Virus record (IMG/VR): IMGVR_UViG_3300010885_012303
Span: 1 to 22,218 of that record
Length of the DNA stretch: 22,218 nucleotides
Strand: one strand, 5' to 3'
Source: a virus
Part shown: piece by piece, positions 8,659 to 22,218 of the stretch
How positions within the stretch are numbered: the stretch's first letter is position 1
How the letters are laid out: each line of letters starts with the position of its first letter
Translations under genes and position numbers: made by a program
The notes under the pieces: model-generated
What the model was told of the DNA's origin: nothing
What the model saw: the letters and a program-made list of their open reading frames with translations, nothing else
The model's database searches: none

Positions 8659-9870
8659 TTAAGCGAGTGAATCTTGAACCATGATTGTTGTCGCTAAATT
8701 AGCCACTGCACTACCACCCGCTGTATTTTTAAGCGCAGTAAATGGGAATGTGCGAGTTAATCCAGACGCGCCATCAGTTACATCAGCACCGCCAATTTTA
8801 ACGCGTGACATGGTAAACGATACAAAATCAGCCGTTGCAGTGCTATCTGTTGTTAATACCATAATGATAGACACTTCGGTTTCATTGATAAAGTAATCGC
8901 GGAATGTTGCGTCGGTAAAGTAAGCACTAAATGTACCTGTTGCGCCTACAACGCCTTGGAAAACATCTGGGCGTGTTAATGAACCAACTACTGCGTCAGC
9001 TACTGCAATATTTCCGTTAATGTCAAAATCAATTGAAGTAACGATTGCAACAGGTGTTCCTGCAACAAGTAACAAGCCATTTACACCAGCAGTCACGCCA
9101 CCAGTTGTAATTGCAGTTGGTGAAGTTAAAACTTGTGATGTGCCAGTGGTAACATTTAAGCCGACCAATGGAAAATCAATGGTCGCCATGCCATTAGCAG
9201 GGATTTTTACCTGTGCATTAGTTTGCATAATGTCAGTGTAAACCTCTGACTGCGCAACGTCTGAAAACCAATGTTCAACTGTGTAATAATCTTGTGTCTG
9301 TGAAGTTTCTGGCACATAAGTATATTTGCCGGGAATAGCAACAGTTACCCCAGTAACTGAGGTTGCATTATCTGCAAGCGCACTACCGTTTAACGTTTTA
9401 ACTGTTAATGTGGTTGCTGTTACAGCAGTCACTAATAAGTTTTTATTTAAGTTAGCCGCGTTAACGCTGCCCGCTGTAATGCGAACCACGTTACCGATTT
9501 TAATACCACCAGTTAACGGATTTCCTGTTTGGAATGTAATCACGCCAGTTGATGCAACAATAGTGACAGCCGCTGCGGTTAACGATGAAATCGCAACAAA
9601 GTCTTTACGCAATACGGATTGTAAAAAGTCTTTATATGTTCCCGCTGATAATTCACCGCTTAATGTACCCGTTGATTGTTTTGAGCCATGACGAAAATCA
9701 GCAATTTGTTGATCTGGGCGAATCTCGTTTGACTGGAATGTTTCTTTAGTCAAGTTGATTGTGCTTGTGACACGTCTTAATTCTTGACCGCCACTGCCTG
9801 AAGCTGCTACGCCTAAGCCTGTTTGTTTTTTGTAAGATACGACTTTTTTAACGCCTTGTGCAATTGTCAT
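8659..9870 (-). CDS. Major tail tube protein
   Basis: This 403-residue structural protein would polymerise into the tail tube. It begins with the phage tail tube type N-terminus (VVSYKKQTGLG, then LRRVTSTINLTKETFQSNEI at about residues 30-50 and FRHGSKQSTGTLSGELS). About residues 95-175 form a Thr/Val-rich beta insertion (GNVVRITAG, NLLVTAVTATTLTVK). The C-terminal half returns to the tube fold (FRDYFINETEVSIIMVLTTD, FTMSRVKIGGADV, TRTFPFTAL). It is low in Cys and charge, typical of virion proteins. ATG 9870 has AGAGG about 8 bases upstream. Position between the tail terminator and the G/T chaperones, with a strong terminator after it, fits a highly expressed tail subunit. Confidence 0.9.
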   Translation of the reverse strand: MTIAQGVKKVVSYKKQTGLGVAASGSGGQELRRVTSTINLTKETFQSNEIRPDQQIADFRHGSKQSTGTLSGELSAGTYKDFLQSVLRKDFVAISSLTAAAVTIVASTGVITFQTGNPLTGGIKIGNVVRITAGSVNAANLNKNLLVTAVTATTLTVKTLNGSALADNATSVTGVTVAIPGKYTYVPETSQTQDYYTVEHWFSDVAQSEVYTDIMQTNAQVKIPANGMATIDFPLVGLNVTTGTSQVLTSPTAITTGGVTAGVNGLLLVAGTPVAIVTSIDFDINGNIAVADAVVGSLTRPDVFQGVVGATGTFSAYFTDATFRDYFINETEVSIIMVLTTDSTATADFVSFTMSRVKIGGADVTDGASGLTRTFPFTALKNTAGGSAVANLATTIMVQDSLA

Positions 9871-9881
9871 TTTGTAACCTC

Positions 9882-10289
9882 TTATGGATAAATATCTGCT
9901 GAAAAATAAATTGATACCGGAATTTTATAAAGCACCCCGTCAATCAATGCCGGTGCAATTGAAGGTGTCTTGTCAATAATAACAGTTACACTGCCGTTTG
10001 TTAAACTTGTACCGCGTTTAAAATGATTAACCAATAAATCAACGCGGGTTGCTGCTGTTTTTGCGCCTACGTTAGCCGGATAACACAATAGAACCTGCAT
10101 AAATCCTTTTACGCGATAATGATTGCCTCCCAGTGTTGGGTTAAGTGTGTCTGCAATCATTAAATTAACTTGTTGATATGCTGTGCCAACGATGGGCGTA
10201 AACGGTACGTTTTCCCACGCTGTCGCAATCGTAGGCGTTAGCGCATTGAGTTTTGTTTCTAATGCGGTACGGATCTCAACCAGTGCCAT
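9882..10289 (-). CDS. Tail terminator protein (DUF4128-like)
   Basis: This 135-residue protein resembles the small alpha/beta tail terminator or tail completion family that caps the tail tube and joins it to the head. The N-terminal helix (IRTALETKLNAL) leads into WENVPFTPIVGTAYQQVNLM, and the centre has the repeated strand pattern RVKGFMQVLLCYPANVG followed by a helix (TRVDLLVNHFKRG). It ends in KIPVSIYFSAD. ATG 10289 lies inside the end of the upstream neck gene (14-base overlap), and the tail tube gene begins 11 bases downstream. The gene order neck, terminator, tube supports the call. The family name is from memory of the fold pattern. Confidence 0.75.
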   Translation of the reverse strand: MALVEIRTALETKLNALTPTIATAWENVPFTPIVGTAYQQVNLMIADTLNPTLGGNHYRVKGFMQVLLCYPANVGAKTAATRVDLLVNHFKRGTSLTNGSVTVIIDKTPSIAPALIDGVLYKIPVSIYFSADIYP

Positions 10290-10635
10290 TTAAAACTCCT
10301 TCAAATAATGCAACAGATACACGAACCATGCCGTTTGGTGCTTGTCTGCTATGTGCGTCATATTCTAATTTTTGAATATAAGGCACGTTGTTGGTTAAGT
10401 AAACAACACTGCCTGCTCTGCGTGGGATAACGCTTTGTGCTTTCATTACGCTACCGCTATCATCTTCACCGACAAAAGGCGAATCAATTGTACATTGCCA
10501 GTTACCGCGAGCGCGTCCAGTATCAACAGGTGTCATTTGAATAATGTTAGAAAAAACTTCACTTGTTGCAGCGCGTATTTTATTATCAACGTGACCATTA
10601 GCACGCGCCACAATTTGCGACATTGACCCCGTCAT
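10276..10635 (-). CDS. HK97 gp10-like neck (tail completion) protein
   Basis: This 119-residue protein carries the hallmark TPVDTGRARGNWQ motif (residues about 35-47) of HK97 gp10-like head-tail joining proteins, followed by the usual VVYLTNNVPYIQKLEYDAHS strand-helix and a C-terminal helix. Proteins of this family sit in the neck between connector and tail. ATG 10635 overlaps the stop of the upstream gene in an ATGA junction. A second in-frame ATG four codons on (10623, MSQIV) is an alternative start. The product overlaps the tail terminator gene by 14 bases. Confidence 0.88.
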   Translation of the reverse strand: MTGSMSQIVARANGHVDNKIRAATSEVFSNIIQMTPVDTGRARGNWQCTIDSPFVGEDDSGSVMKAQSVIPRRAGSVVYLTNNVPYIQKLEYDAHSRQAPNGMVRVSVALFEGVLNGTG

Positions 10636-10991
10636 TTTCTCACCTGCATTTCATAAAGCGCGGGTAATTCACCCGACCATATATGACGAACTGCCACCAC
10701 TTGATAAACTTCACTATCAACGGTTACTTTATCTGCTGGTTGTGGAGTTGGTGCGCCTAATGCCGCGATCATTACCTTTCTGTCGCCCGCTTGCACTACG
10801 CCACTAATAAAATCAATTCCGTTATAGTCTTTAATAACGGCAGTATGATTAGTGGATGTTGTTGTTCCGCCCGATAACTCCCCTGTTGTTGGGTCATAAG
10901 TGCCCTCAACAATAGACGTTAGCGTGATTGATTTGCCAAACTTATCGAGCAATTTATCTGCTGTAGATCGAGCGCGAGCGTCAAGTGTCAT
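10632..10991 (-). CDS. Head-tail adaptor / head closure protein
   Basis: This 119-residue protein has the features of the small head closure (stopper) family. An N-terminal helix (STADKLLDKFGKSITLTSI) is followed by a beta barrel with a GTYDPTTGELSGGTTT turn and strands GDRKVMIAAL, KVTVDSEVYQVVAVRHI. The sequence YDPTTGE is common in these proteins. ATG 10991 overlaps the stop of the upstream connector gene by 4 bases (ATGA), and the gene ends in another ATGA overlap with the gp10-like gene. Such tight coupling of three neck genes is typical for siphophages. Confidence 0.78.
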   Translation of the reverse strand: MTLDARARSTADKLLDKFGKSITLTSIVEGTYDPTTGELSGGTTTSTNHTAVIKDYNGIDFISGVVQAGDRKVMIAALGAPTPQPADKVTVDSEVYQVVAVRHIWSGELPALYEMQVRK

Positions 10992-11518
10992 GTTCTCACC
11001 AATGATCTCGACATATCATTACCCTGTTGTTTAAAAAACACCGATAACATGGCATCAATTTGAGCATAGCGGGTTTGTTGTGGTGAGTATTTGTCATATT
11101 CCACCTCGATAACGTCTACTTTTTCACGAATAACGCCTTGCGTTAAATCCTGCATTAAAATGGCTGTGTAAGATTTTAACGCTAATTCAGCACACGCATT
11201 TTTTACAGTAGTTGGCACAATGTCAAAATCCACATATTGCGGAAAAACATTTGCCGATAATGAATCAATTAATGGAACGTATAAGCGCGGCCAATCAAGC
11301 GACTGTGTTGAGTATCTGCGATAACCCGCATATTGCAAACGATATTGAGCCACCATATAATCTGTGGCTTTGCGCAATAATTGTTCTTTTGTTGCATCAC
11401 TTGTAATTGCCGCCCATGCCGTATTGCCAATGTTTGCGTGGTAGGTTGTTGCGTCTGCAACTGATACATAACTTTCAGCGTTTGCAAGTCCAGTGCCATT
11501 TTCAACTATTAAAGTCAT
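10988..11518 (-). CDS. Head-tail connector protein (DnaT-like / gp6-like family)
   Basis: This 176-residue protein opens with NGTGLANAESYVSVADATTYHAN, which matches proteins labelled 'putative DnaT-like ssDNA-binding protein' in phage head modules. That label is historical and the role is more likely connector/adaptor. It continues with an all-helical segment (EQLLRKATDYMVAQYRLQYAG, then DWPRL and TTVKNACAELALKSYTAIL). ATG 11518 has AAGG 7 bases upstream. The gene lies nine bases after the upstream head gene and overlaps the head closure gene by 4 bases, as expected for the first component of the neck cassette. Confidence 0.78.
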   Translation of the reverse strand: MTLIVENGTGLANAESYVSVADATTYHANIGNTAWAAITSDATKEQLLRKATDYMVAQYRLQYAGYRRYSTQSLDWPRLYVPLIDSLSANVFPQYVDFDIVPTTVKNACAELALKSYTAILMQDLTQGVIREKVDVIEVEYDKYSPQQTRYAQIDAMLSVFFKQQGNDMSRSLVRT

Positions 11519-11527
11519 AATATAACC

Positions 11528-11983
11528 TTAAAATGCCGGTGTAATTGTTGCGCCATCTTCAAGTGGTTCATATCTGATGTAATGTTTCCATGTGCCAGTA
11601 GTTGAACCAACACCAATAACGCTAGTTAAAATGCTATTTCCACCAACTCTAACTGCTCCCCAAGGAAATGCGCCCACGCCACTTGCGTTTGAAATAACAG
11701 GCGCGTTAGTTAATGCGCCAAGTTGTGCAAGAACGCTTGTTTTAGGTGCTTTGCTTGCAAGTGTAGCTGATGCTGCTGAGATTGTTTGTGCGGTAGCACT
11801 GTCATTATTTGTAATGCTGTATTGCAACGTTGATGCTGTTGCGTTATTTGCTGTGTAACATTCAGAAACAAGCGCATAAATTAAAACGTCACCAGTGATA
11901 TTAAAAAGCGTATCACCATTAACCATGACTTTTGCAGTTGTTTTTGCAACGTGATCTGAATTGTCTTTTGTTTGTCTGCTCAT
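11528..11983 (-). CDS. Head-associated protein of unknown function
   Basis: This 151-residue protein lies between the capsid gene and the neck genes. It is beta-rich and Ala/Thr/Ser-rich with few charges (TLFNITGDVLIYALVSECYT, STLQYSITNN, SVIGVGSTTGTWKHYIRYEP). This suggests a virion surface or head accessory protein. I have seen similar hypothetical proteins in this position in other siphophages but know no defined function. I chose ATG 11983 (MSRQTK), preceded by AAGGTGG about 8 bases upstream. An in-frame TTG two codons earlier is less likely. The start is two bases after the stop of the preceding small gene. Confidence 0.65.
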   Translation of the reverse strand: MSRQTKDNSDHVAKTTAKVMVNGDTLFNITGDVLIYALVSECYTANNATASTLQYSITNNDSATAQTISAASATLASKAPKTSVLAQLGALTNAPVISNASGVGAFPWGAVRVGGNSILTSVIGVGSTTGTWKHYIRYEPLEDGATITPAF

Positions 11984-11985
11984 AA

Positions 11986-12261
11986 TCAATCCACCTTATG
12001 AATTTGCAATGTGCCTGTTCCGCTTGTTGTAATCGCACCAATTTTGCGCGATTCATCAATACCTAAAGTGACTACATTATAAGCGAATAAAATATAACCC
12101 GTTGACGTGGTTACATCTGTTGCAGTTTCTTCTACTTTAATATAACAATCAATTGTTGACCAAACATCATACAAACCTTCGTGAAGTGCTGCTGATTGAG
12201 CTGCTGATGATGATATTGCAAATGATTGTTGTGAGTTGCCTTCTAAAAATACTGGGTTCAT
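11986..12261 (-). CDS. Small head protein, possible capsid decoration protein
   Basis: This 91-residue protein directly follows the major capsid gene. Its pattern (SSAAQSAALHEGLYDVWSTIDCYIKVEE, GYILFAYNVVTLG, GAITTSGTGTLQIHKV) is a compact all-beta fold like the small proteins often encoded next to capsid genes, where decoration proteins are found. I chose ATG 12261 (MNPVFLEG) because GAG lies about 8 bases before it. An earlier in-frame ATG at 12273 (MRKN) has no ribosome site, and the longest frame (to 12366) would overlap the capsid gene and run through a hairpin. The decoration role is inferred from position and size only. Confidence 0.6.
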   Translation of the reverse strand: MNPVFLEGNSQQSFAISSSAAQSAALHEGLYDVWSTIDCYIKVEETATDVTTSTGYILFAYNVVTLGIDESRKIGAITTSGTGTLQIHKVD

Positions 12262-12287
12262 ATTTTTTCTCATAAGATAATAAAGGC

Positions 12288-12321
12288 GGGGGAACGCAAA
12301 CAGGAACGAACGCGAACCCCC
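12288..12321 (-). other. GC-rich hairpin between capsid gene and the following head gene
   Basis: An inverted repeat pairs five G with five C at its base, then a 2x2 AA/AA (TT/TT) internal loop, then CGC with GCG, around a 14-base loop. It sits in the 68-base gap after the capsid stop codon. On the minus strand seven U residues precede the stem rather than follow it, so it is not a standard intrinsic terminator. It may be an RNA stability or processing element. Confidence 0.35.
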
Positions 12322-12329
12322 TAAAAAAA

Positions 12330-13478
12330 TTAACCGAGCAACGTCGCAACGTGGTTTGGTTTCCATACTTTAGCACCGTATAAGCAACGTACTTCAAGCA
12401 TAGTTTTCATATAACCTTTATAGACTGCGATTTCAAATACCAGACCGCTTGTTGGATCTTGAACTGTCATTACATCAACAGCAGAGTCACCACCGTTTGG
12501 CATAGCTGGAGCGCGCATACCTAGCTCAACGGCTGATTTATGGAAAGCAACACTTGGTGTGTAAGAATCGCCAATTGTTAAAGCGTTTGCTGTAGCAATG
12601 ACTTTTTGTGCGCCTGGAGCATTTAATGAAATAGTGCCAGCAGCCGCAACACCTGTGCCAACAACGTATTTGTTAACGGTATCCGCTGCAAATGTTACAA
12701 CGTCACCCGCTAATACTGTGCCGCTACCAGTTACAAGAGCAACATCAGTTGCACCGATAGCAGTTGAGCCAGAAGTTACATAAGAAGCACCAGCGCCTTT
12801 TGTGTGCGTGGTAATGCCAGCCGATTCTTTAATCATTACGCCTTGAAGGTCAAGCAAAGTACCTTGGCGCAATAAAGCTTCATTACCAGCAGTATTAACT
12901 TGTTGTAGTTGAGCAAGGTTGCGTAACTTAACGCCAGCAGCAGTATTCATTACTAGGCTGATTTGGTTATCAATCGGGCAACCGTTATCAACTAGGACTT
13001 GACGCACTTGAGCGATAGTGTCGAAGTTAGAAGCAAAAGGAGTAGTTCCAGCAGTACCAATGGCGCGTGAAGCACCTTTGTAAACTGTTGCAAATAAGTC
13101 TTGTTCAATCTTGTTGCACAATGCGCGAATGGCTTGAGATATTTGGTCACCATAAATAGTTTCGTAGCCTGAACCGTTGTTGACGTGTTTGACATCTTCA
13201 CCAGTCCAAGGAATCTGAACAGAAGCGTAAGAATCAAGAGTCATTGTTTTGTTGTCAACAGTTTGGTCAGTACCTTCAGGGATAGTCATTGAAGGCGCAA
13301 ATGAAGTGTTTGCTGATGGTGTGCGTGTGAAAGATGCACGGATAGTGTCGCCTTTAGCGGCTCTGTCTGTTGCGTTACCATTGATGGTAGCTGATGGAAT
13401 AAAGCCGACCAATTCACGACCGACTATGTCAGCCGCCTTATAAATGTCTGCCGCTAGGTTGTTTAATACGTTTGCCAT
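12330..13478 (-). CDS. Major capsid protein (P22 coat-like, HK97 fold)
   Basis: This 382-residue protein is the coat subunit that builds the procapsid shell on the scaffold. Features of the P22-type coat family are visible: N-terminal NVLNNLAADIYKAADIVGRELVGFIPS, then GDTIRASFTRTPS, the LDSYASVQIPWTGEDVKHV segment (about 83-102) and YGDQISQAIRALCNKIEQDL. An A-domain follows with QVRQVLVDNGCP. A Thr/Ala/Val-rich insertion at about residues 225-285 fits the extra beta domain common in this family. The C-terminus has PSVAFHKSAVELGMRAP and GLVFEIAVYKGYMKTMLEVRC strands. ATG 13478 has AGAAGG 9 bases upstream. It lies downstream of a scaffold-like gene, as in most phage head modules. Confidence 0.93.
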   Translation of the reverse strand: MANVLNNLAADIYKAADIVGRELVGFIPSATINGNATDRAAKGDTIRASFTRTPSANTSFAPSMTIPEGTDQTVDNKTMTLDSYASVQIPWTGEDVKHVNNGSGYETIYGDQISQAIRALCNKIEQDLFATVYKGASRAIGTAGTTPFASNFDTIAQVRQVLVDNGCPIDNQISLVMNTAAGVKLRNLAQLQQVNTAGNEALLRQGTLLDLQGVMIKESAGITTHTKGAGASYVTSGSTAIGATDVALVTGSGTVLAGDVVTFAADTVNKYVVGTGVAAAGTISLNAPGAQKVIATANALTIGDSYTPSVAFHKSAVELGMRAPAMPNGGDSAVDVMTVQDPTSGLVFEIAVYKGYMKTMLEVRCLYGAKVWKPNHVATLLG

Positions 13479-13481
13479 TTT

Positions 13482-13521
13482 GATTGCCTTCTAAAATAAA
13501 AAAAATAATTAGACGGCAATC
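13482..13521 (-). promoter_or_regulatory. Inverted repeat overlapping the capsid gene ribosome-binding site
   Basis: GATTGCC (13482-13488) and GGCAATC (13515-13521) form a perfect 7-bp inverted repeat around a 26-base A/T-rich loop. On the minus-strand mRNA the right arm contains the last GG of the AGAAGG ribosome site of the capsid gene. Folding would partly hide the site. The role is inferred; a 26-base loop makes the structure only modestly stable. Confidence 0.35.
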
Positions 13522-13533
13522 GAAACAGGGTTT

Positions 13534-14151
13534 TTACTCCGAGACTTTGCCGCCTTGCTTAATAAAACTAGCTCTCTCGGCTTGTGACATTGTGTCAAAG
13601 CCTGATCGACCTACTGTTTTCTGAGAGCCTGTACCACCGGCCCCACTCGCACCGCCTCCGCTGTTGGAAGGTGCTGAAATATAATGTTTACCGTCATCAC
13701 TGCCCGCCCATTCTGTGACGAACGCGCTTAAGTCCTTGTCGCCAATCATTGCTTTGCGACTATCACCATCAACAGTGATTTTAGCCTGTGTTGATAGCAT
13801 TGCTTTTACAGCGGGTAAAAATGGAGCTGATACACCAGCCTTTACAAGAGCATCGGTTAAGCCATTATCAAGTAATAACTTAGATGTAAAGCCAGACTCG
13901 GAGCTTAACTGGCCTTGTAATGTTTCCAGCACCTTTGCCGACTCTTTGCCAGCTTTGTTAGCCGCGCTTAAGTCTACAGTCAGTTTGTCTATCTGCGCTT
14001 CAAGATCAATCACCGTTTGTGGATCAATCTCTTGACCTTTCATAAGCTTCTTGTTCTTGTCTAGCAATTCCTGATTCTTTGTCTTAAGTCCGCTAATTGC
14101 CGACTCAACTGCTGAATCAATAACTGCTTGTATTTCTGGTGTAATTTTCAT
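13534..14151 (-). CDS. Putative scaffolding protein (GP20-like)
   Basis: This 205-residue protein lies between the MuF-like gene and the capsid gene, where phage scaffolds are encoded. It is highly helical: residues about 10-90 form a coiled-coil-like run (SGLKTKNQELLDKNKKLMKG, then IDLEAQIDKLTVDLSAANK). A segment with two hydrophobic helices follows (LLLDNGLTDALVKAG, FLPAVKAML). A flexible Gly/Ser linker (SNSGGGASGAGGTGS) leads to a C-terminal helix-like tail (FDTMSQAERASFIKQGGK), which is often the capsid-binding part. I chose ATG 14151 (MKITPE) because AGGGGA lies 5 bases upstream. An in-frame ATG at 14178 has no such site. No protease gene is seen nearby, so scaffold removal may not need cleavage. 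Confidence 0.75.
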   Translation of the reverse strand: MKITPEIQAVIDSAVESAISGLKTKNQELLDKNKKLMKGQEIDPQTVIDLEAQIDKLTVDLSAANKAGKESAKVLETLQGQLSSESGFTSKLLLDNGLTDALVKAGVSAPFLPAVKAMLSTQAKITVDGDSRKAMIGDKDLSAFVTEWAGSDDGKHYISAPSNSGGGASGAGGTGSQKTVGRSGFDTMSQAERASFIKQGGKVSE

Positions 14152-14212
14152 CTTGTCCCCTAAGGATTTGGAGGGCATAGCCCGATTAAAGATCGCCTAA
14201 CGATTTTGACGT

Positions 14213-14221
14213 ACTATAACA
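14213..14221 (-). promoter_or_regulatory. Possible extended -10 promoter ahead of the scaffold and capsid genes
   Basis: The minus strand reads TGTTATAGT, an extended -10 element (TGnTATAGT). It lies in the 84-base gap between the MuF-like and scaffold genes, about 60 bases before the scaffold start. The best -35 candidate, TTGATT, is only 15 bases upstream. The identical 9-mer occurs upstream of the terminase genes at 18517-18525. An extra internal promoter here would raise scaffold and coat output. Confidence 0.35.
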
Positions 14222-14235
14222 TGAAATATATTAAA

Positions 14236-15267
14236 TCAACTCTCTTTTGCTTTTAATTCTGCAAGCGTGTACTTATGCCCTGAGCTGTCCACAAATTTAT
14301 CCAGTGGCGTTCCTGCACGATATAGGTCAGCTCTGGCCTTGCCTAGCACCTCATCTTGAAATGCTACGGGCTGTTTTTTTAGCCATGTTTGATAGGTTTC
14401 TGTTTGGGCAACTTGCCCATTCATTGATGCTCTAGTTCTGCCATCAGGGTTTTTAATGCCCATACCTTCCCATGATTTTAGAACACTGACTGTAGACGAC
14501 CTGCAATTGATATGTGCAGGAGGATATAAAGCACTGTCAAGCGGATAGACTTTACCATCCCGCGCTTGGCATATTGAACTGGTTTTACCGTCTAATGTAG
14601 ATACCCATTGCACACCGCTAAATATATCCGCATTAGCTTTGTAATATTCTTGGCTTGCCGTGTTGCTTGCATGTGACATTGCCGTGCTAACTATCGCCTG
14701 AGCCTGTCGTCTGTTTAAAGCTGTAACACCGTCGGTAAATTGGAGCGCCTTTGTTCCTGTGACTCGCTTAACAACATCGCTGTAAGACTGCCCTTCGACT
14801 AAGCCAATTCTTACAGCGTCCTGTAATCTTGAAAAGCTATCGCTATCCAGTTTATCAATCCATTCTTTTATGAGCTTGCCTTGTAATGGCTTGGACTCTA
14901 TGGCCGCAAAAAGCACAGCAGGCGCAACAGCGGTTAAGTCTAAAACTATAGGCGTTACGCTGTTAGTCGTCTTAATCTGCCATTCTTGCTCGTAAGCGCC
15001 CGCCTCGTTCATGTTAATAAACAACTCTTTACCAGCTAAGTTATAGCCCTCCGTCATTATTGCCCTGACTGATTGTAACCTTGCGTCAATCTGGGCAATA
15101 CTCATAGAGCTATCTAAATCTAATGAGCGGAGCTGTGCAACTAAATCCTTTTCAACTACCTTTAATAAGTCCATGACTTTTTTAGTAGTGGAAGAATAAT
15201 AACGCCTTAAATATATCTCGTGAGCTATGGTTTTATCCCTTAGCTGAGTGTTAGCTGTTTCTATCAC
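14236..15267 (-). CDS. MuF-like minor head (head morphogenesis) protein
   Basis: This 343-residue protein belongs to the phage head morphogenesis (Mu gpF / SPP1 gp7) group, minor proteins that bind the portal and help DNA entry. The core MuF signature is clear: VQWVSTLDGKTSSICQARDG (residues 219-238) followed by PPAHINCRSS (249-258), with paired Cys residues at 233 and 255. Upstream is a helical RRQAQAIVSTAMSHASN segment. The C-terminus carries YQTWLKKQPVAFQDEVLG and FVDSSGHKYTLAELK, common in these minor head proteins. Translation starts at a GTG (15267) overlapping the portal stop as GTGA, with GGTGGGA about 8 bases upstream. No fused toxin or ART domain is present. Confidence 0.9.
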   Translation of the reverse strand: MIETANTQLRDKTIAHEIYLRRYYSSTTKKVMDLLKVVEKDLVAQLRSLDLDSSMSIAQIDARLQSVRAIMTEGYNLAGKELFINMNEAGAYEQEWQIKTTNSVTPIVLDLTAVAPAVLFAAIESKPLQGKLIKEWIDKLDSDSFSRLQDAVRIGLVEGQSYSDVVKRVTGTKALQFTDGVTALNRRQAQAIVSTAMSHASNTASQEYYKANADIFSGVQWVSTLDGKTSSICQARDGKVYPLDSALYPPAHINCRSSTVSVLKSWEGMGIKNPDGRTRASMNGQVAQTETYQTWLKKQPVAFQDEVLGKARADLYRAGTPLDKFVDSSGHKYTLAELKAKES

Positions 15268-16655
15268 GCTAACATCCCACCAGTGGCAGGGTTATTTTTA
15301 ATCCTTTCTTGCTCATCGTCAAAACTAATATCCTGCGCAATAATGTCAGCAGACACAAGGTTTTCAAACAAAACATTCGCGGATATTGCCCCTGCTTGCC
15401 AACTCTTAACAAGCACATCTACATCCTGTGCCGTCATCGAATTAGGTATAAAGTCACGATTTAACTCGACGCTTACATCACCAGCAACGCCCGACCAATC
15501 ACGCAACAACTCAAGCACATGAGTTAATCCAATACTAATTGATTGAGCTATTGAAGCCAATACGCTGTTTTCACTTGATCTGTGTATTGATGCGGTTTGT
15601 GCTGCTTCGGCTGCTCGCTTTTCAGGTGCTAAAATCCTAGCCCCTAAGATAGCCATCATTGATTCCTTTGCGCGTAAAGCTTCGCGTAACTCTCCCAAGC
15701 CTTGGCCTGTAAACTCTAAGTAAAAAGCTTTTGATTGTGGATCTGGTAATAGCCAAGCCGTGCCGCTACCTATTCGAAGTTGTGCAGACTGGTCATCAGA
15801 ATAGTATCCAGTAACAACAGGTGTTGGTAGTCCTGTAAAGTGTAAGCCATGTTCATAGTCTGCTGTAGTCCTGTAGTGGGATAAGTTAACGTCTATTAAA
15901 TCTAACAATGGTGGCTTGTCTACGCAGGGGCTGTTATCTCTAACACCAAAGAACTCAAACGGTATTTTACTAAGCAGCTGCCCATTGATTTGAGGGTAAA
16001 GCTCATCAATTAAAACAAACTCGCCTTTTTTGTCTTTTCTAAATAACCTTTGGCGATACGCGCCCTCGGCTAAATCTAATACGCGCCATTGTGGTTCACA
16101 TTTCGATTCAAACTCGTCGCCCTCAATTTCATACTCTTCTTCAAGAACAACCAGCATTAAATGCTCGACGTTGTTTATGCGTCCGGTTTTCCAGTTTATA
16201 ATTGATTCAGCATCGTACATGGTGGCATAAGATCTTGCGCCTTGTGCCTGTGCTTGGGCTAATGTCACAGCATTGCCGATAGGCGGGTAATCAACTAAGA
16301 CACCACAACGACCAAGCGTTATAACTTCTTCGGCTATCATTTCAGATAGTTGATGAAGCGACAATCCGCTCATGGTCACATCGGCTATGATGTCATCCAT
16401 TGCGCCTGGAGCTGTAACCGCCTCTGGCTTCATAAACAGCATTCCCGTCAAGCCATCAATCGTTCTTGCTGTCGCGTTGTAATATAACGCCCGCTGTTTG
16501 TAAGCATAATATTCAGCGTCATTTTGACCGCTTAGGCGTGGAAGGTATTTAATACCATATTCGTGGATCTCGTCTTGCCCTTCTGCTGCGTGTTCGCATC
16601 GTTCCCATTGCTCGTAATATTCGTGATACTCGCTGTGTTTTGTATCGACTGCCAT
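15264..16655 (-). CDS. Portal protein (DUF4055 family)
   Basis: This 463-residue protein is the portal, the dodecameric ring through which DNA is packaged at one capsid vertex. It has the features of the DUF4055 portal group: RALYYNATARTIDGLTGMLF (55-74), ITLGRCGVLVDYPP (112-125), and the segment LEFTGQGLGELREALRAKES followed by MMAILGARIL (about 310-345), then an AAQTASIHRSSENSVLASIA helix. It lies directly between the large terminase and the MuF-like gene, the canonical place. ATG 16655 has AGGA 8 bases upstream and sits two bases after the terminase stop. Confidence 0.92.
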   Translation of the reverse strand: MAVDTKHSEYHEYYEQWERCEHAAEGQDEIHEYGIKYLPRLSGQNDAEYYAYKQRALYYNATARTIDGLTGMLFMKPEAVTAPGAMDDIIADVTMSGLSLHQLSEMIAEEVITLGRCGVLVDYPPIGNAVTLAQAQAQGARSYATMYDAESIINWKTGRINNVEHLMLVVLEEEYEIEGDEFESKCEPQWRVLDLAEGAYRQRLFRKDKKGEFVLIDELYPQINGQLLSKIPFEFFGVRDNSPCVDKPPLLDLIDVNLSHYRTTADYEHGLHFTGLPTPVVTGYYSDDQSAQLRIGSGTAWLLPDPQSKAFYLEFTGQGLGELREALRAKESMMAILGARILAPEKRAAEAAQTASIHRSSENSVLASIAQSISIGLTHVLELLRDWSGVAGDVSVELNRDFIPNSMTAQDVDVLVKSWQAGAISANVLFENLVSADIIAQDISFDDEQERIKNNPATGGMLA

Positions 16656-16657
16656 AA

Positions 16658-17911
16658 TTAAATTCCTGTAATTGCTGCAAATGTGGGTCTATTATTAACT
16701 ATAGGATAGCGGTAAGCAACAAAATAACCTATTGCATCAACGACATGATCGAACCCAGCAGCTTTGTCAGGCTCGCCTGTTTTTGCGTAGCATTGTTTCT
16801 CTAGAGATTCGACCAGCATTGGACAATATTGCGAATTAACAAAGTATTTCCTAATGCTTAAGTTATGAATCATGGCGTTAACTGATAGCACTCTGTCTTT
16901 AATGAATGGATTGCGTGAATTAACCAATACTTGTAAGCCATACGACCTTAAGATGCTGTGGTCTGATTCACTAGCATTGTTTGACTTTCTAGCATTACCA
17001 CTTGCATCTGGATAGATTAATATTTTATGTGATGGATAGCGCTCTTTTAATAACCGCGCCATCGTTGGAGTATCAAACACGCCCGTGAACTCCATAACTG
17101 CACAAGCTGTATCGCTGCGAACAACATGAACAACGGCAGACATGTTAGCAACGTTAAAATCCAAACCAACGTGTAGTACATCATCAGGCATAATTGTTTC
17201 AGTCGTTGCATTAAGCTTTCTATCAAACTCATGGTAGACGCTCCCAGCGTTAAGGTTTACAAAGTTGCCGTCAAGATATGCAGATAATTGTGCGCTTGAA
17301 TAGGTTGCCTTTAATTGGTCAACATATCCAGCAGGAAGCCTTTTGTTTGAGCTTGTTGGAGCTTTGATTAGCTTATATCCTTTGCGCTTTTCTTTTCCCC
17401 ATGTCTCATACATAAAACCAAATCCTTCAGGTGTTGACACTGCCGCAAGAGTGTTTTTTCTCCCGTCTGGTTTCTTTTGTCTACATCTTCCAAGCATTTT
17501 AACCCATACTGTTCTTGCTTGGTCTATGCGTAGCGTATCAGCCTCATCTATCACCGCGTCAGCGACTTCAAACCCAACCAAACGCTCTGGGTTGTCAGCC
17601 GACCTAAATATTATCTGTGAACCGTTCTCTAGTTTGATGGTCGCATCACTTCGATTTAATTTATATTCTATCTTAAGTTTTTGCAGTATTTCTTCAAAGC
17701 GTGGAAACGCAATCAATCTAATTAAATCGTATGTCGGCTCAATAAAACCAAAATCCATTGTTGGATATTGTAACGCAAGTTTTATAATCCTTAATACTGC
17801 TGCGTGACTTTTTCCCGCCCCATATCCTGCAACCATTGCTGGATGTGTTGATTTTGAATTAATGAACTTTTTTTGCGGAGTGCTTACTCTAATCTTCGTC
17901 GTCATCGTCAT
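16658..17911 (-). CDS. terL: Terminase large subunit (packaging ATPase and nuclease)
   Basis: This 417-residue motor protein drives DNA into the procapsid and cuts the concatemer. The N-terminal ATPase has a Walker A motif GYGAGKS (29-35), Walker B AVIDEAD (119-125, with D122/E123) and a coupling motif STP (159-161). The C-terminal RNase H-like nuclease has its acidic residues in VGLDFN (D251), IYPDASG (D302) and FDHVVDAIGYF (D388, D392). Length is typical of the family. The start lies inside the end of the small subunit gene (23-base overlap in another frame). ATG 17911 and ATG 17905 are both possible; I kept the longer form. Packaging mode (cos or headful) cannot be read from this window. 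Confidence 0.96.
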   Translation of the reverse strand: MTMTTKIRVSTPQKKFINSKSTHPAMVAGYGAGKSHAAVLRIIKLALQYPTMDFGFIEPTYDLIRLIAFPRFEEILQKLKIEYKLNRSDATIKLENGSQIIFRSADNPERLVGFEVADAVIDEADTLRIDQARTVWVKMLGRCRQKKPDGRKNTLAAVSTPEGFGFMYETWGKEKRKGYKLIKAPTSSNKRLPAGYVDQLKATYSSAQLSAYLDGNFVNLNAGSVYHEFDRKLNATTETIMPDDVLHVGLDFNVANMSAVVHVVRSDTACAVMEFTGVFDTPTMARLLKERYPSHKILIYPDASGNARKSNNASESDHSILRSYGLQVLVNSRNPFIKDRVLSVNAMIHNLSIRKYFVNSQYCPMLVESLEKQCYAKTGEPDKAAGFDHVVDAIGYFVAYRYPIVNNRPTFAAITGI

Positions 17912-18308
17912 CTAATCCGTCATCTTCAATAAACTCAAATTTCTTTATTGAGGCTGTTTTTATAGTTGCTTCAACACGATCTGTTGATACTCCTGCCGCT
18001 TTACCTCTGGCAATTTCAGCCGTAATAGCTGCGTTGATTTGATTGTTTTTAACGGCAAGGTTGCGCAACGTCATTAAGTCTTTTAAATGCGATTCAAGCG
18101 TAATGCCAACAGCTTCAATGATGGGTTTGCGTAACTCGTCAACCCTTGCTGAAATATTGCTGTCAGCCATAAGCCGTGAAGCATTAGCTTGTATCGTTTC
18201 AGGCTTAGTTGTTGGCTTTGTATCAAACGCCCCACGATAAGCATCAGCCTGTGTTTTGCCTTCTGCAACCAGTTGAGCAAAGCGTTCTTGTTTAGGTGTG
18301 AGAGCCAT
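17889..18308 (-). CDS. terS: Terminase small subunit
   Basis: This 139-residue protein would recognise phage DNA and recruit the large terminase. The N-terminus (LTPKQERFAQLVAEGKTQADA, then ANASRLMADSNISARVDELR) matches the helix-turn-helix domain of the Terminase_2 family, followed by a helical oligomerisation region (about 68-105). It ends in a very acidic tail with DDDDDED. I chose ATG 18308 (MALTPK), with AGGTGA about 7 bases upstream. A longer frame starting at TTG 18329 has no ribosome site. The gene overlaps terL by 23 bases, so translation is probably coupled. Confidence 0.92.
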   Translation of the reverse strand: MALTPKQERFAQLVAEGKTQADAYRGAFDTKPTTKPETIQANASRLMADSNISARVDELRKPIIEAVGITLESHLKDLMTLRNLAVKNNQINAAITAEIARGKAAGVSTDRVEATIKTASIKKFEFIEDDGLDDDDDED

Positions 18309-18325
18309 AAGTTTCACCTGTTGAA

Positions 18326-18433
18326 TCAAGTATTGCCTGTTTGCCCGTGAAGTCTTGCCAGCGTTTTACTAATACACACGCACTTTCTGTACGACACATA
18401 AATAGCAAAGTGAGTATGCTTACAATCTTTCAT
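18326..18433 (-). CDS. Possible 35-residue Cys/His-containing small protein
   Basis: A short reading frame opens at ATG 18433 with AAGG 6 bases upstream and ends at TGA 18328-18326, 17 bases before the small terminase start. The predicted peptide begins MKDCKHTHFAIYVSYRKCVC, is basic, and has Cys4, His6, His8, Cys18 and Cys20, an arrangement that could bind zinc. It follows directly on an intrinsic terminator; the U tract runs into its ribosome site. It may be a real leader gene of the late operon or a chance frame. I recognise no family. Confidence 0.4.
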   Translation of the reverse strand: MKDCKHTHFAIYVSYRKCVCISKTLARLHGQTGNT

Positions 18434-18443
18434 ATTAACCTTT

Positions 18444-18472
18444 AAAAAAATGCCCTATTTATTTAACAGGGC
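18444..18472 (-). terminator. Intrinsic terminator upstream of the terminase operon
   Basis: On the minus strand GCCCT pairs with AGGGC (18468-18472 and 18452-18456) around an 11-base A/T loop, followed after one base by seven U residues. It would end transcripts coming from the replication operon, or stop early transcripts from the candidate promoter at 18517-18525 unless antitermination acts. The stem is short (5 bp) but the U tract is strong. Confidence 0.7.
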
Positions 18473-18516
18473 TTGAGTGGTTGGGTCGGAGAACCCCTTG
18501 CAAAATCGTTTTGGTG

Positions 18517-18525
18517 ACTATAACA
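18517..18525 (-). promoter_or_regulatory. Candidate late promoter (extended -10) upstream of the terminase genes
   Basis: The minus strand reads TGTTATAGT, an extended -10 element identical to the one at 14213-14221. A -35 is poor (TTATGG at 16-base spacing). Transcription would begin near 18510 and meet the terminator at 18444-18472 after about 40 bases, then continue into the small leader frame and terS. The arrangement resembles a late promoter with a leader terminator. Confidence 0.4.
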
Positions 18526-18560
18526 CTTTTTTAAAAAACCATAATAAAAACTACAATAAA

Positions 18561-18849
18561 ACTCAGGATAGGAAAAACTGCCCTGAGTCTTCCCTGAGTC
18601 TGCCCTGAGTTTTCAGTAAATCCTCTTGTAAGTCTTTATATATAAAAGAAAAAAAAAAAAAATAATATATATATAGAACTCAGGAATAGATATTTTATAT
18701 GTCTAGGTGATAATTTTATTTTTTACTAATAAGAGGTGATTTATATATCTATATTTATAAAAACTCAAAATCCTGAGTTTTTTGTAAGAAACGTATACAT
18801 GGCGAGGCCTGTAGGGCAAACTCAGGCTTAACCCTGAGTTTGCCTGAGT
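18561..18849. repeat. Array of nine CCTGAGT/ACTCAGG repeats with AT-rich core, candidate replication origin
   Basis: CCTGAGT occurs on the plus strand at 18582, 18593, 18604, 18772, 18833 and 18843. Its complement ACTCAGG occurs at 18561, 18678 and 18820. The three copies at 18582-18610 sit at exact 11-base spacing, one helical turn, inside an 11-base tandem repeat of the form CCCTGAGTCTT. The copies at 18820 and 18833 form a perfect 12-bp palindrome arm pair (18815-18826 and 18833-18844). The copy at 18772 pairs with a degenerate ACTCA to make a 9-bp hairpin (18759-18767 with 18774-18782). Between lies about 150 bases of nearly pure A/T, including 14 consecutive A (18649-18662) and a TA run. 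Iterons plus an AT-rich unwinding region next to replication genes suggest an origin. No initiator is identified. Confidence 0.6.
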
Positions 18850-20151
18850 TTATTTAGTCCAGAAATAATACGTTGTTGGCCTTTGTGCGTTGTTTAGTTT
18901 TACGAGTTTAGTGTGGATTGAATTGTTTGCTGTAAGTTCGTCAAGTAGTTGTTTTCGTAGCATTGGCAGTATCTGTGCTGTTTTGCTTCCCAGCTCTTTT
19001 GCTGTTATGCCTTTTCTACCAGCCTCTTTTATTCTTGCTTTTAATAGTTTTGTTAATCGTTCGTTTTCGTTGTCTGAGCCTAGGTGTTTAAATTTTTGTG
19101 AGAATACTTTTATTGATTCCATTTCTAATATTTCAAACCAATGCAGGATTTCTATGTTTTGACACTGATCTATTAGCATTGCTCCTTGGATAGCTCTAAC
19201 CCCTCCGCGATTATACATAGGAGCGAATGATTTGTTATCACCGGACAACGATATGCTTTTTTTCTTAAACCTATACACTAAATCATATTTTGCTTCGCTA
19301 TAAGCCTCTGTTACTGGTAATTGAGTCGAGCATAAAAACAAGTCTTTTGCATATTGCTGTTGTAATGCTAGTAAATCACTAATGATGCTGGCCGGAACTT
19401 GTATGTTGTGAAGCTTTAATTTAATCGGCAATAAACCATTAAGGCCAAAAAGTAGCGAATATCTAGCTAAAGAGCCGTTTGCAAGGTCTGATGTCTTTAA
19501 TCCGTCAAATATCTGTCGTTCTGTGCTTAAGCCAAAAACACAGACATTAGGCTCAATAATCTTTTTAGCCGCGTTACCTTTTGTTTTTTTACCAGACAAA
19601 GAGCTGTTTGCCGAGGTATAAGCCTCTGTGAGCAATACCACAATTTCTTTAGAGAATTGATTAGAATTTTTCCCGTTAATGCTCGATAGATACTCGCCAA
19701 ACTCGTCAATATAAAATAACATTGTTGGCGATTCTTCCAAACTATCCATGAAGGCCGCCCCTGATGCCATTTTTCCGTGTAAGCTATCACCCATGCCTAT
19801 TGTTTCAAGTATTAACTTTGCAGCCTTAAACGGAAAATCCTTGCCTTCGCCTGATTCAGCCATTGCAATAAACATTAAGTTTCCTTTAATGTTCTCATAA
19901 GCAATGTTTCTGCCTACAGCCACCGACATAACCGACATGGCCGCAGCAAAGGCTATAGCTGGTTGAGGATAAATACTTTCTTTTAAAATCCATTGCTGAA
20001 TATCTCTAGCTATGCAAGGAAACGGTATTATGTAATCAATATCACTTGACAGGTCGGGCTTCCAGTCCTGCGCCTCTGGTTCGTCATTCTCTCTTTCTTT
20101 TAAGCGATCATCTAAATATTTTTGTCCAGCTGTCGGATTATTGGCTTGCAT
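18850..20151 (-). CDS. DUF3987-like replication ATPase / helicase
   Basis: This 433-residue P-loop protein resembles DUF3987 proteins found in phage and plasmid replication modules and probably works as a replicative helicase or primase-associated ATPase. Features: ISIYPQPAIAFAAAMSVMSVAVGRNI-type helical lead-in (about 58-83, seen as KESIYPQPAIAFAAAMSV), a Walker A-like AESGEGKD (98-105), Walker B MLFYIDEFGEYL (144-155, D149/E150), and GSLARYSLLFG (226-236), the conserved Arg-containing motif. The C-terminus (about 360-433) looks like a winged-helix domain. I chose ATG 20151 (MQANNP) because GGTGGG lies just upstream and it overlaps the primase-like gene by only 14 bases. An earlier ATG at 20190 is possible. 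It is followed by the repeat array. Confidence 0.8.
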   Translation of the reverse strand: MQANNPTAGQKYLDDRLKERENDEPEAQDWKPDLSSDIDYIIPFPCIARDIQQWILKESIYPQPAIAFAAAMSVMSVAVGRNIAYENIKGNLMFIAMAESGEGKDFPFKAAKLILETIGMGDSLHGKMASGAAFMDSLEESPTMLFYIDEFGEYLSSINGKNSNQFSKEIVVLLTEAYTSANSSLSGKKTKGNAAKKIIEPNVCVFGLSTERQIFDGLKTSDLANGSLARYSLLFGLNGLLPIKLKLHNIQVPASIISDLLALQQQYAKDLFLCSTQLPVTEAYSEAKYDLVYRFKKKSISLSGDNKSFAPMYNRGGVRAIQGAMLIDQCQNIEILHWFEILEMESIKVFSQKFKHLGSDNENERLTKLLKARIKEAGRKGITAKELGSKTAQILPMLRKQLLDELTANNSIHTKLVKLNNAQRPTTYYFWTK

Positions 20152-20554
20152 AACCCACCGCCTCACTAATTCTTTGATATGCCAATTCAATACGTTTTAA
20201 GTCATTGCCCGATATTTTTATCTGATTAACAATATCAGATGCTGCAAGATGGATAATTCTAGTCTCGTATAATAGACACTTTAAAATGTCAGCAGCCGGA
20301 AATGGTTGGTATTCTCGCTTAAATCCTTCTTGATTTTCTGGAAACAAGTCACTTAACTCTAAGCCTATCGCCCCAACTATTGACGAAACATCACATCCAC
20401 TAAAGCAGTGAATTAAAAGATTACCATTATCACATTCTTTAATCGCTAAAGAAGGCGACCTATCATCATGAGCAGGACAACAGGCTATCCATCTATTGTT
20501 TCCAGTTGACTTAACTTTTTGCAAATGCTGTAAGACATTATTGGCTATTGACAT
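20138..20554 (-). CDS. Primase-type CHC2 zinc-finger protein without a catalytic domain
   Basis: This 138-residue protein carries the zinc-binding domain of DnaG-like and phage P4/T7-type primases: CPAHDDRSPSL (C26, H29) and HCFSGC (C50, C54), followed by GLELSDLFPE (about 64-73). This domain reads single-stranded DNA template sequence. The remaining 60 residues are helical, and no TOPRIM or archaeo-eukaryotic primase motif is present. The downstream DUF3987-like ATPase overlaps it by 14 bases, so the two may act as a split primase-helicase. ATG 20554 lies inside the end of the XRE gene (17-base overlap), with GAG about 8 bases upstream. Confidence 0.85.
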   Translation of the reverse strand: MSIANNVLQHLQKVKSTGNNRWIACCPAHDDRSPSLAIKECDNGNLLIHCFSGCDVSSIVGAIGLELSDLFPENQEGFKREYQPFPAADILKCLLYETRIIHLAASDIVNQIKISGNDLKRIELAYQRISEAVGYASQ

Positions 20555-20723
20555 GATTAATCTCTAGGTAGTCGCTCAATTTTTTAAAGGTTCTATACGT
20601 TGGGTTTATATCATCCCCCCTCTTAATACGTGAAATTTGCTGGTAGTTAATGCCAGTGGCTGCGGCTACTTTACTAATATTTTGCTTGTTAAGGTTATTT
20701 ACGATTTGGTCTAGTGTTAGCAT
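20538..20723 (-). CDS. XRE/Cro-like helix-turn-helix regulator
   Basis: This 61-residue protein is a minimal DNA-binding domain. ISKVAAATGINYQQISRIKRG (residues about 16-36) gives the two helices of a Cro/CI-type helix-turn-helix, and NPTYRTFKKLSDYLEI (40-55) the following helix. The small size is that of a Cro-type regulator rather than a full CI repressor with a protease domain. It is the first gene of the minus-strand replication operon and faces the plus-strand early operon across a 202-base AT-rich region, so it could control both. The ribosome site is weak (GAG 11 bases before ATG 20723). Confidence 0.85.
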   Translation of the reverse strand: MLTLDQIVNNLNKQNISKVAAATGINYQQISRIKRGDDINPTYRTFKKLSDYLEINHVNSQ

Positions 20724-20925
20724 GTTTATATACTCTAAAATTTAAACTTATGGATTTAAACTATATAACATTAATGCTATAATTAAAACCTAATTTTTAA
20801 ATTATTTTAAAATCCTTACAAAGTTTTTATTATAGAAAAAAAAAGAATATAAATAATTTTACTTTTTAAAAAATTTATAATATAATTACCTCGAACTAAA
20901 AAAACAACCTAACCGAGACAATGCG
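20724..20925. promoter_or_regulatory. Divergent early control region
   Basis: This 202-base, very AT-rich gap separates the minus-strand XRE/replication operon from the plus-strand early operon. It holds a good plus-strand promoter (20858-20886), weaker minus-strand -10 candidates (TATAAT at 20829-20834; TGTTATATA near 20763-20771) and a direct repeat ATTTAAACT at 20740-20748 and 20754-20762, 14 bases apart, just upstream of the XRE gene. The repeat is a candidate operator; which protein binds it is unknown. Confidence 0.6.
20858..20886 (+). promoter_or_regulatory. Early plus-strand promoter
   Basis: TTTACT (20858-20863) and a perfect TATAAT (20881-20886) are separated by 17 bases. A second overlapping TATAAT occurs at 20876-20881. 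Transcription would begin near 20893, about 33 bases before the first plus-strand gene. Confidence 0.65.
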
Positions 20926-21141
20926 ATGATTAAATTTGAAACAAACAAAGCTTACAAAAACCGTTCAATTTGTGATTCTGAAATGTTTTTTGAAATAACA
21001 GTTATTTCAAGAACTGAAAAAACTATCAAAGCATTAGTTGATGGAGTGGTTAAAACTTTACGCATTGCCATTTATGAAGGGCGTGAATTTGTAAAACCTT
21101 GGGGCTCTTATTCGATGTGTCCAATTATTAACGCAGCATAA
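20926..21141 (+). CDS. Small early protein of unknown function
   Basis: This 71-residue protein is the first gene of the plus-strand early operon. It appears to be a small beta-rich domain: FETNKAYKNRSICDSEMFFEITVISRT, then TIKALVDGVVKTLRI and a conserved-looking end (EFVKPWGSYSMCPIINA). I recall similar short proteins with the RSICDSD and YSMCP motifs in many phages and plasmids, all without known function. Two Cys residues are present (16 and 64). ATG 20926 has only a weak ribosome site (GAG about 10 bases ahead). A three-codon frame ATG-CGA-TGA overlaps just upstream. Confidence 0.75.
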   Translation: MIKFETNKAYKNRSICDSEMFFEITVISRTEKTIKALVDGVVKTLRIAIYEGREFVKPWGSYSMCPIINAA

Positions 21142-21150
21142 AACAAACCT

Positions 21151-21164
21151 CCCCAGAAGTGGGG
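21151..21164 (+). other. Small hairpin between the first two early genes
   Basis: CCCCA (21151-21155) pairs with TGGGG (21160-21164) around a GAAG loop. It lies between the stop of the unknown early gene and the ribosome site (GGAG, 21173-21176) of the next. No U tract follows, so it is not an intrinsic terminator; an mRNA stability or translation element is possible. Confidence 0.4.
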
Positions 21165-21182
21165 CAACCAACGGAGCAAAGC

Positions 21183-21350
21183 ATGACCTCAGAAGATGAA
21201 CAAAAAGCATTTAAAGCATCACAAGAACGAACACTAGTATCTATTAGTGCTGAACTACACAAAAAACTAAAAGTAATGGCAGTATCAACATCAACAAGCA
21301 TTTATGTCTTAGCTGATGAAGCGATTACAAAATACTTAAAAGGCAAGTAG
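21183..21350 (+). CDS. Ribbon-helix-helix DNA-binding protein (Arc/CopG-like)
   Basis: This 55-residue protein has the ribbon-helix-helix layout: a short strand RTLVSISAEL (about 16-25), helix HKKLKVMAVS (26-35), a turn STSTS, and a second helix IYVLADEAITKYLKG (40-54). Dimers of such proteins bind operators through the strand pair. I chose ATG 21183 (MTSEDE) because GGAG lies 6 bases upstream; the longer frame from 21159 has no such site and overlaps the hairpin. It may regulate the early promoter or associate with the adjacent ATPase. The stop codon is one base ahead of the next start. Confidence 0.78.
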   Translation: MTSEDEQKAFKASQERTLVSISAELHKKLKVMAVSTSTSIYVLADEAITKYLKGK

Positions 21351-21351
21351 A

Positions 21352-22197
21352 ATGGCAATCCCTAGCTTAGACAATGTAAAGTTTGATGATATTGAATTGG
21401 CAGTTAAGACAAAGAAAAGACCACAGTTCAGCATCATCTATGGCAAGGGCGGTATAGGCAAAACTACAGCCGCTTGTTATTCACCTGACCCAGTTATCTT
21501 GCCAGTTGGTAGAGAAACAGGTCAAGAAAGAATGATTGATAATGGTGTTCCTTCTTTTGAAAATACAAAAGGAATGCCACCTATTGAGTTTGTCTTTGGC
21601 TGTATGCAAAAGCTACTTAAAACTGAGCATAGCCGCAAGACATTAATCATAGATAATATTGGTTCATTTCGTGAGGCAGTAGAGGAAGATGTAGAGGCGG
21701 ACAACAAAGGCGTTGACCTTAAAGCTTATGGCAAGGGCGCAGCATTAGCATATCCATACTACACAAGACTATTAGCTGGCATAGATGCCATCATGAAAAA
21801 GAAAGACATGCACGTCATTCTAATTGCTCATGATGTTCTTTATAATATTAACAAAGAAGATGGCACGTATTACCAACGTATCGGCATTAACGCACCAGCA
21901 GGAGAAAATACAAACGTGCGAGGATTATTAGAAGCAAGAGCGCATAACGTACTTTATATCAGAGGTGAAGATCCAACCAGAACCGTTAAAGGTGTTATGG
22001 GTGGAGTTAAACAAATAGCCACATCAGGCAAAATAAACCGAGTAATTTACACCAAACCGCAAGGTACATTCTTTGCAAAGAGTCGCGTCAATGCTGAGCC
22101 TTACTATGAAATAGAACCCACAGAAACCGAGGAGGACTTATTAAACAATAAAACAAATGAAACTTTAATACAACTTTTTACTGACCTTTATAAATAA
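21352..22197 (+). CDS. Sak4-like RecA-fold ATPase (AAA_24)
   Basis: This 281-residue protein is an ATP-binding protein of the AAA_24/Sak4 type, a minimal RecA-like core used by phages for single-strand annealing recombination with an SSB. It has Walker A YGKGGIGKTT (about 30-39), Walker B KTLIIDNIGS (about 96-105), a central HVILIAHD strand (about 154-161), and the loop region NVRGLLEARAHNVLYI typical of this group. The N-terminal FDDIELAVKTKKRPQFSIIYG leads into the P-loop. It starts at ATG 21352 with AAAGG 8 bases upstream, one base after the RHH gene stop. Whether an SSB gene follows cannot be seen; the next ribosome site lies at the window edge. Confidence 0.85.
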   Translation: MAIPSLDNVKFDDIELAVKTKKRPQFSIIYGKGGIGKTTAACYSPDPVILPVGRETGQERMIDNGVPSFENTKGMPPIEFVFGCMQKLLKTEHSRKTLIIDNIGSFREAVEEDVEADNKGVDLKAYGKGAALAYPYYTRLLAGIDAIMKKKDMHVILIAHDVLYNINKEDGTYYQRIGINAPAGENTNVRGLLEARAHNVLYIRGEDPTRTVKGVMGGVKQIATSGKINRVIYTKPQGTFFAKSRVNAEPYYEIEPTETEEDLLNNKTNETLIQLFTDLYK

Positions 22198-22211
22198 ATT
22201 AAAACTAAATC

Positions 22212-22216
22212 AAGGA
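22212..22216 (+). promoter_or_regulatory. Ribosome-binding site of the next early gene (start beyond the window)
   Basis: AAGGA at the right edge, 15 bases after the stop of the Sak4-like gene, is a typical Shine-Dalgarno site. It implies that the plus-strand early operon continues immediately beyond the window. Confidence 0.45.
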
Positions 22217-22218
22217 AT

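Follow-up and report, generated by a model that had tools for sequence, protein, structure and literature searches.

An iteron array around an A/T core, beside a DUF3987-like helicase gene, as the probable replication origin of an uncultured phage

Introduction

SaPI and PICI elements carry origins of the form iterons-AT-iterons that lie immediately 3′ of the rep helicase gene, as described by Fillol-Salom 2018 (PMC6092414) and in Ubeda 2007 (via PMC7581432), and the C-terminal domain of SaPI Rep recognises its origin (PMC7581432). The P4 alpha protein is an initiator helicase whose C-terminal winged helix binds origin repeats, and the winged helix of pRN1 ORF904 recognises a site that lies 3′ of the gene encoding it, the origin likewise being 3′ of the replication gene (PMC4234260). 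SCCmec Cch2 uses its C-terminal domain to bind AAGTG direct repeats located a short way downstream of the Cch2 gene, at a putative origin (PMC7581432). Streptococcus phage Sfi21 (AF115103) has an annotated 302-bp origin directly downstream of a D5-type helicase gene. The layout has so far been described mainly for phage satellites and not for full phages, and we found no described origin for a DUF3987-like helicase in a full phage in the open-access literature searched.

Here we describe a comparable locus in an uncultured phage. The window analysed, 22,218 nucleotides long, is an IMG/VR fragment of a near-complete circular genome of ~33.8 kb when joined. A 290-base stretch within it is very probably, judging from its sequence, the site at which copying of the phage DNA starts.

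Results

Genome context and the CCTGAGT array

Contig G001 (33,885 bases) represents the same phage: its right part is 99.995% identical to window positions 1-18682, and its left end is 99.8% identical to 18618-22218. Virion genes in the window include a terminase and a portal, with further structural ORFs recognised by reading, while the replication module of G001 and the window comprises Gp157 (PF05565), ResIII, AAA_24 and an SSB-type protein (phrog_9002). The array stands at the 3′ end of the primase/helicase operon, as the first-pass annotation had it, and directly abuts the helicase stop codon. The features of the region are as follows.

17889-18329, minus strand: terminase small subunit gene (terS), the next gene after the array; this neighbourhood is not conserved in relatives
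18452-18472, minus strand: intrinsic terminator beyond the array
18561-18567, minus strand: CCTGAGT iteron, inverted copy in the left array (exact-motif count)
18582-18610, plus strand: three tandem CCTGAGT iterons in 11-bp phasing
18629-18677, no strand: conserved A/T core made up of TAAGTCTTT (18629-18637), A14 (18649-18662) and TATATATA; presumed unwinding element
18678-18684, minus strand: iteron at the core border, on the helicase side
18759-18767/18774-18782, no strand: 9-bp inverted repeat AAAAACTCA/TGAGTTTTT, containing a plus-strand iteron (18772-18778)
18815-18826/18833-18844, no strand: 12-bp inverted repeat GGCAAACTCAGG/CCTGAGTTTGCC with opposed iterons (18820-18826, minus; 18833-18839, plus)
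18843-18849, plus strand: iteron abutting the helicase stop codon (exact-motif count)
18850-20190, minus strand: putative initiator helicase, 446 aa from an upstream TTG (SGxGKD P-loop; phrog_3022, E 1e-37)
18853-19065, minus strand: C-terminal winged-helix domain, candidate iteron binder (residues ~376-446, mostly pLDDT 78-90)
20138-20554, minus strand: zinc-ribbon primase fragment of the helicase operon (family search)
20538-20723, minus strand: small XRE regulator, encoded at the head of the helicase operon (family search)

The nine exact heptamers reported earlier within 290 bases are all present: CCTGAGT or its complement ACTCAGG occurs nine times in 18561-18849, a number reached in none of 100 dinucleotide shuffles (mean 1.34, maximum 5). 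Neither orientation recurs elsewhere in the window, in keeping with what had been judged by eye, and a count over the whole genome of ~33.8 kb again returned nine copies, every one inside the array, so that no other region shows a similar density of the motif. The tandem triplet has the exact 11-base spacing claimed for it (plus-strand copies at 18582, 18593 and 18604), and four sites lie on one side of the A/T core and five on the other. By a sliding-window repeat score the array came second in G001, behind a repeat inside a long ORF (2391-7811); the corresponding array of G006 (L013) was not singled out. A blastn comparison of the array with phage records gave no matches, Rfam and tRNA scans of it found nothing, and neither a DnaA box nor an IHF site was found inside it.

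Triplets of CCTGAGT at 11 bp also occur in ten other IMG/VR contigs, several of them near terminases, which we treat as unrelated. Tandem copies with 11-bp spacing lie near ORFs resembling large terminases in L015, L016, L017, L018, L020, L021 and L023, and heptamer arrays at the ends of the T7 genome resemble these terminase-side tandems. One further case (L024:8557-8585) has three ACTCAGG copies at 11 bp inside a 283-aa ORF that looks replication-initiator-like by eye, in a lambda-O-like arrangement.

The two hairpins of the first-pass annotation, a perfect one of 12 bp built from two copies and one of 9 bp around a single copy, were both confirmed as inverted repeats. The relative L003, whose helicase is ~85-86% identical, keeps both opposed sites of the larger repeat and not its 12-bp arms, and on this ground the hairpins are probably inverted pairs of candidate binding sites; a hairpin or cruciform as the functional unit was rejected for the same lack of conservation. 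A terminator similar to that at 18452-18472 follows the array in L003 too, and the operon transcript therefore probably crosses the array. A minus-strand transcript passing the array in this way, together with a single strand that folds better than its shuffles (z -5.7), would suit a regulatory region whose operators, or whose structured 3′ UTR, act on expression of the late genes or of the helicase operon. We regard this reading as extremely unlikely, given the unconserved hairpin arms, helically phased sites that point either way, promoter-like matches no commoner than chance, the lack of any Rfam match, and a conserved element that is an A/T tract and not a structured RNA.

The A/T core

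The core had been described as a nearly pure A/T tract with a run of 14 A. The run is there (18649-18662) and is the sole A or T run of at least 12 in the 33.8-kb genome, but the wider description holds for the inner ~50 bases only, because the A/T content of 92% over 18629-18677 drops to 85% over 18629-18771. In calculated DNA stability the core ranks as the second least stable site of the window's genome and as the least stable in the relatives G004 and G006. A stability slightly below that of the core was calculated for the divergent promoter region at 20.74-20.89 kb, which counts against an origin here. GC skew, proposed earlier as a check, has its minimum and switch at ~20.96 kb and not at the array, a result which also counts against the origin reading and is uninformative because the skew switch coincides with a switch in gene direction. 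The lowest stability in the genome belongs to the stretch at 20724-20925, which separates the XRE gene from the rightward early genes and lies close to the skew minimum.

That iterons flank a core expected to melt easily supports the earlier proposal that repeats and an unwinding region together form an origin layout.

A candidate initiator

The helicase gene more likely starts at 20151, as in L003, than at the upstream TTG. Its product matches phage primase/helicase families (phrog_3022) and, weakly, DUF3987 (Pfam, E 0.014), a family for which the related helicases of L030 and L031 reach the cut-off; neither D5 nor DUF927 was matched in the Pfam scan of the window protein. The SGxGKD P-loop is invariant in an alignment of the relatives. 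AlphaFold2 predicted the helicase core at low confidence, which counts against the proposal made here, and the C-terminal domain at good confidence with a winged-helix topology. The top Foldseek matches of the model include winged-helix proteins, none of them below E 0.1, and a full-fold comparison was dropped since the core is too poorly predicted.

The remark in the first-pass annotation that no initiator is obvious was thus too pessimistic: SaPI Rep, SCCmec Cch2 and P4 alpha offer an analogy that makes the adjacent helicase, with its predicted C-terminal winged helix, the obvious candidate, and it is probably this helicase that opens the origin.

Conservation among helicase relatives

The helicase of L003 is 86% identical to that of the window over the full alignment, and those of L010, L011, L012, L013, L029, L030 and L031 are 44-56% identical; phage MW202423 also encodes a close relative. 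Conservation in relatives had been named as a test, and TAAGTCTTT...A-tract...TATATAT is indeed found downstream of the helicase gene in six of them (L003, L010, L011, L012, L013 and L030, with helicases 49-86% identical). Read on the helicase strand, the element runs from a TATATA stretch through a long T tract to TATATAATATAAAGACTTA (the closing part is a variant in L003), and the whole is flanked by short repeats. A strict core pattern, TAAGTCTTTATN{0,14}A11N{0,8}TATATAT, scanned over all of IMG/VR, matched exactly five contigs, all of them helicase relatives found independently by protein search, and the L030 core matches once the gap is loosened. The same pattern had no match in 84,980 bacterial and archaeal species genomes, and a helicase profile search of genome contigs returned no relatives. 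A looser core scan gave two extra contigs (L040 and L041), which were rejected as chance matches because they are coding and carry no helicase relative in the DNA examined.

At the same place as in the window, L003 has seven exact copies of CCTGAGT. The motifs learned for each region are CCTGAGT in the window and L003, CAACTGAG/CAACCGAG in L010 and L011, ACCTGAGT/CCCGAGT in L012 and ACACCTGA in L013. Relative to AAAGACTTA, which is the TAAGTCTTT box on the helicase strand, the sites lie at the following positions.

Window: -141, -48 (the core-border iteron), +27, +38, +49, +69
L003: -141, -45, +28, +40, +73
L012: -142, -48, +27, +40, +71
L010: +29, +40, +51
L013: +30, +68

The array, the core, their co-conservation with the helicase gene and the spacing can be read directly from the DNA: the letters of the iteron drift while position, orientation and ~11-bp phasing relative to the core are largely kept. 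Repeat counts are clearly above shuffles in the window, L003, L010 and L012. They are marginal in L013 (G006) and not significant in L030, which counts against the origin reading, and the case for these two relatives consequently rests on the core and the site positions. Both L031 and L029 have arrays of their own (TATAGGCG and GACGCGAGTT, respectively). Two further results count against an origin: L029 is an exception in that the exact core is absent and the repeats lie upstream of the helicase gene, and MW202423 has neither the exact core nor a significant array.

These comparisons bear on which protein would bind the iterons. The stretch could be an origin whose iterons are bound by the XRE protein of the operon or by a host factor that recruits the helicase, much as lambda O recruits DnaB. 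In the window, L003, L012, L013 and L030 the primase/helicase genes are indeed preceded by a small XRE gene, yet L010 and L011 have a different HTH type and L029 an Arc-like gene there while an array persists. Moreover, CCTGAGT within one mismatch is absent from the promoter region of the XRE operon, where an autoregulator should bind, and the array lacks DnaA boxes and IHF sites. Replacement in some relatives and the missing motif at its own promoter region make XRE the weaker candidate, and we consider recruitment of this kind unlikely.

The same relatives also bear on whether the terminase might recognise the stretch, as a packaging site (pac/cos) or as a terminal-repeat element. For this reading, the array of the window has terS as its next gene, several other IMG/VR phages (some of them T7-like) carry tandem CCTGAGT with 11-bp spacing close to terminase genes, and contigs G001 and G004 both open in the core. 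The two ends of G001 share an imperfect 65-base overlap (L005:1-65, L006:16821-16885) in which the length of the A-run differs; those of G004, opened inside the core (L032 start, L033 end), overlap exactly over 121 bp, and G004 is therefore a circular assembly, for which such an overlap is typical. Other contigs, that of the window among them, continue across the core. In relatives the array remains beside the helicase, but the large terminases change (phrog_38319 in the window, phrog_3717 in G004, phrog_979 in G003), as do the portals (phrog_145, phrog_12082 and phrog_1497), and in the pairwise comparisons made among the window, G003, G004 and G006, similarity between terminases or between portals was slight or absent. 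The gene after the array is an exonuclease gene in L003, and HNH and PAPS-reductase genes follow it in G006. The site is thus not linked to a terminase type, as a cos or pac site would be, and with a conserved core beside differing terminase and portal families we judge a packaging site very unlikely.

Wider DUF3987 phages

Moraxella phage Mcat10 and Synechococcus phage Ssp-JY40 encode remote DUF3987 helicases, with an identity of only 24-36% over the matched part. Both have strong arrays. An A/T stretch directly after the Mcat10 helicase gene is surrounded by GCAGACA iterons, some ten in number and pointing both ways (L045:3553-3796; 10 sites, shuffle maximum 5), and nine to ten GTCGGTTAGC-type iterons lie behind the gene of Ssp-JY40 (L038:4678-4928; 10 sites, shuffle maximum 5). 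These iterons are unrelated to those of the window and occupy the same place relative to the helicase, which speaks for the origin reading. The Mcat10 record has an attL annotated at 3801-3813, just beside the array. A Spartinivicinus plasmid has a weaker array by its helicase, and the arrays of Loktanella, Klebsiella, Sinorhizobium, Serratia and Pseudoalteromonas phages fell below significance in the stretches tested, which counts against the origin reading.

In the annotated Sfi21 origin, TATATATAGAGAGAGACTTA closes the A/T tract (L048:6640-6656) and is similar to the TATATAATATAAAGACTTA of the window's family. CHPC1156 and the satellite Javan760 have ...GTGAACTTA and ...GCGAACTTA there, with GAACTTA in both; the ACTTA ending is absent after the A/T tract in 98201 and Javan555. 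The AGACTTA of Sfi21, and the ACTTA of CHPC1156 and Javan760, may be due to chance. That self-loading phage helicases in general, beyond the family of the window, use a core with the TAAGTCTTT box as their loading or melting element seems improbable to us.

Discussion

The reading that we favour, and think likely on the basis of sequence comparison and structure prediction, is an origin at which the phage helicase binds the iterons through its C-terminal winged helix, melts the core and starts forks. The helicase would bind the CCTGAGT sites that flank the core, assemble there as rings, melt the A/T core (18629-18677) and load or translocate outward, after which the phage primase and a host polymerase would start forks. 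Origin activity, binding, melting and ring loading are what we infer from the arrangement. Such a scheme would give the DUF3987-type phage helicases, a little-studied group, a proposed initiator-iteron pair. As the iteron letters differ among relatives while the layout is largely fixed, these phages form a natural set for tests of co-evolution between winged helix and origin. The scheme also suggests a simple rule for origin prediction in uncultured phages, namely to look beside the helicase gene.

Among described systems, the locus matches the SaPI/PICI origins and the annotated Sfi21 origin in layout. Its array is non-coding and immediately 3′ of the helicase gene (L029 excepted), iterons flank both sides of an A/T core (four and five in the window), the iteron sequences are element-specific and the helicase has a C-terminal DNA-binding domain, here a predicted one. 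Unlike SaPI/PICI Rep proteins, which are DUF927 or D5/Primase-C-terminal, the helicase of the window matches only DUF3987 and phrog_3022; the core has a conserved TAAGTCTTT plus an A-tract, and the phage, unlike a satellite, brings along terminase, portal, capsid and tail genes of its own. Sfi21 shares repeats on both sides of an A/T tract (49/50 A/T in Sfi21) and a module of Gp157, AAA_24, SF2 helicase, SSB-type, primase and helicase genes with the origin 3′ of the helicase gene, but it has a D5-type helicase and a Prim-Pol primase in place of the DUF3987-like helicase and zinc-ribbon primase fragment, iterons of a GTAAC family and a different gene order. P4 alpha and pRN1 ORF904 are SF3 helicases with no detected sequence relation to that of the window; the pRN1 operon resembles the window's in including a small repressor gene, whereas its origin is a stem-loop without iterons. 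The Cch2 system differs in having three iterons only, a D5-type helicase and a chromosomal cassette as its setting. In contrast to lambda-type origins, where the iterons lie inside the O gene with a DnaB loader adjacent, the array is intergenic, and no O-like family was found among the replication genes scanned in the window. Since the locus departs from them in its helicase family and in the kind of element that carries it, we do not file it under PICI or D5 origins; it would instead extend an origin design reported to be exclusive to satellites to complete phages with unrelated virion modules.
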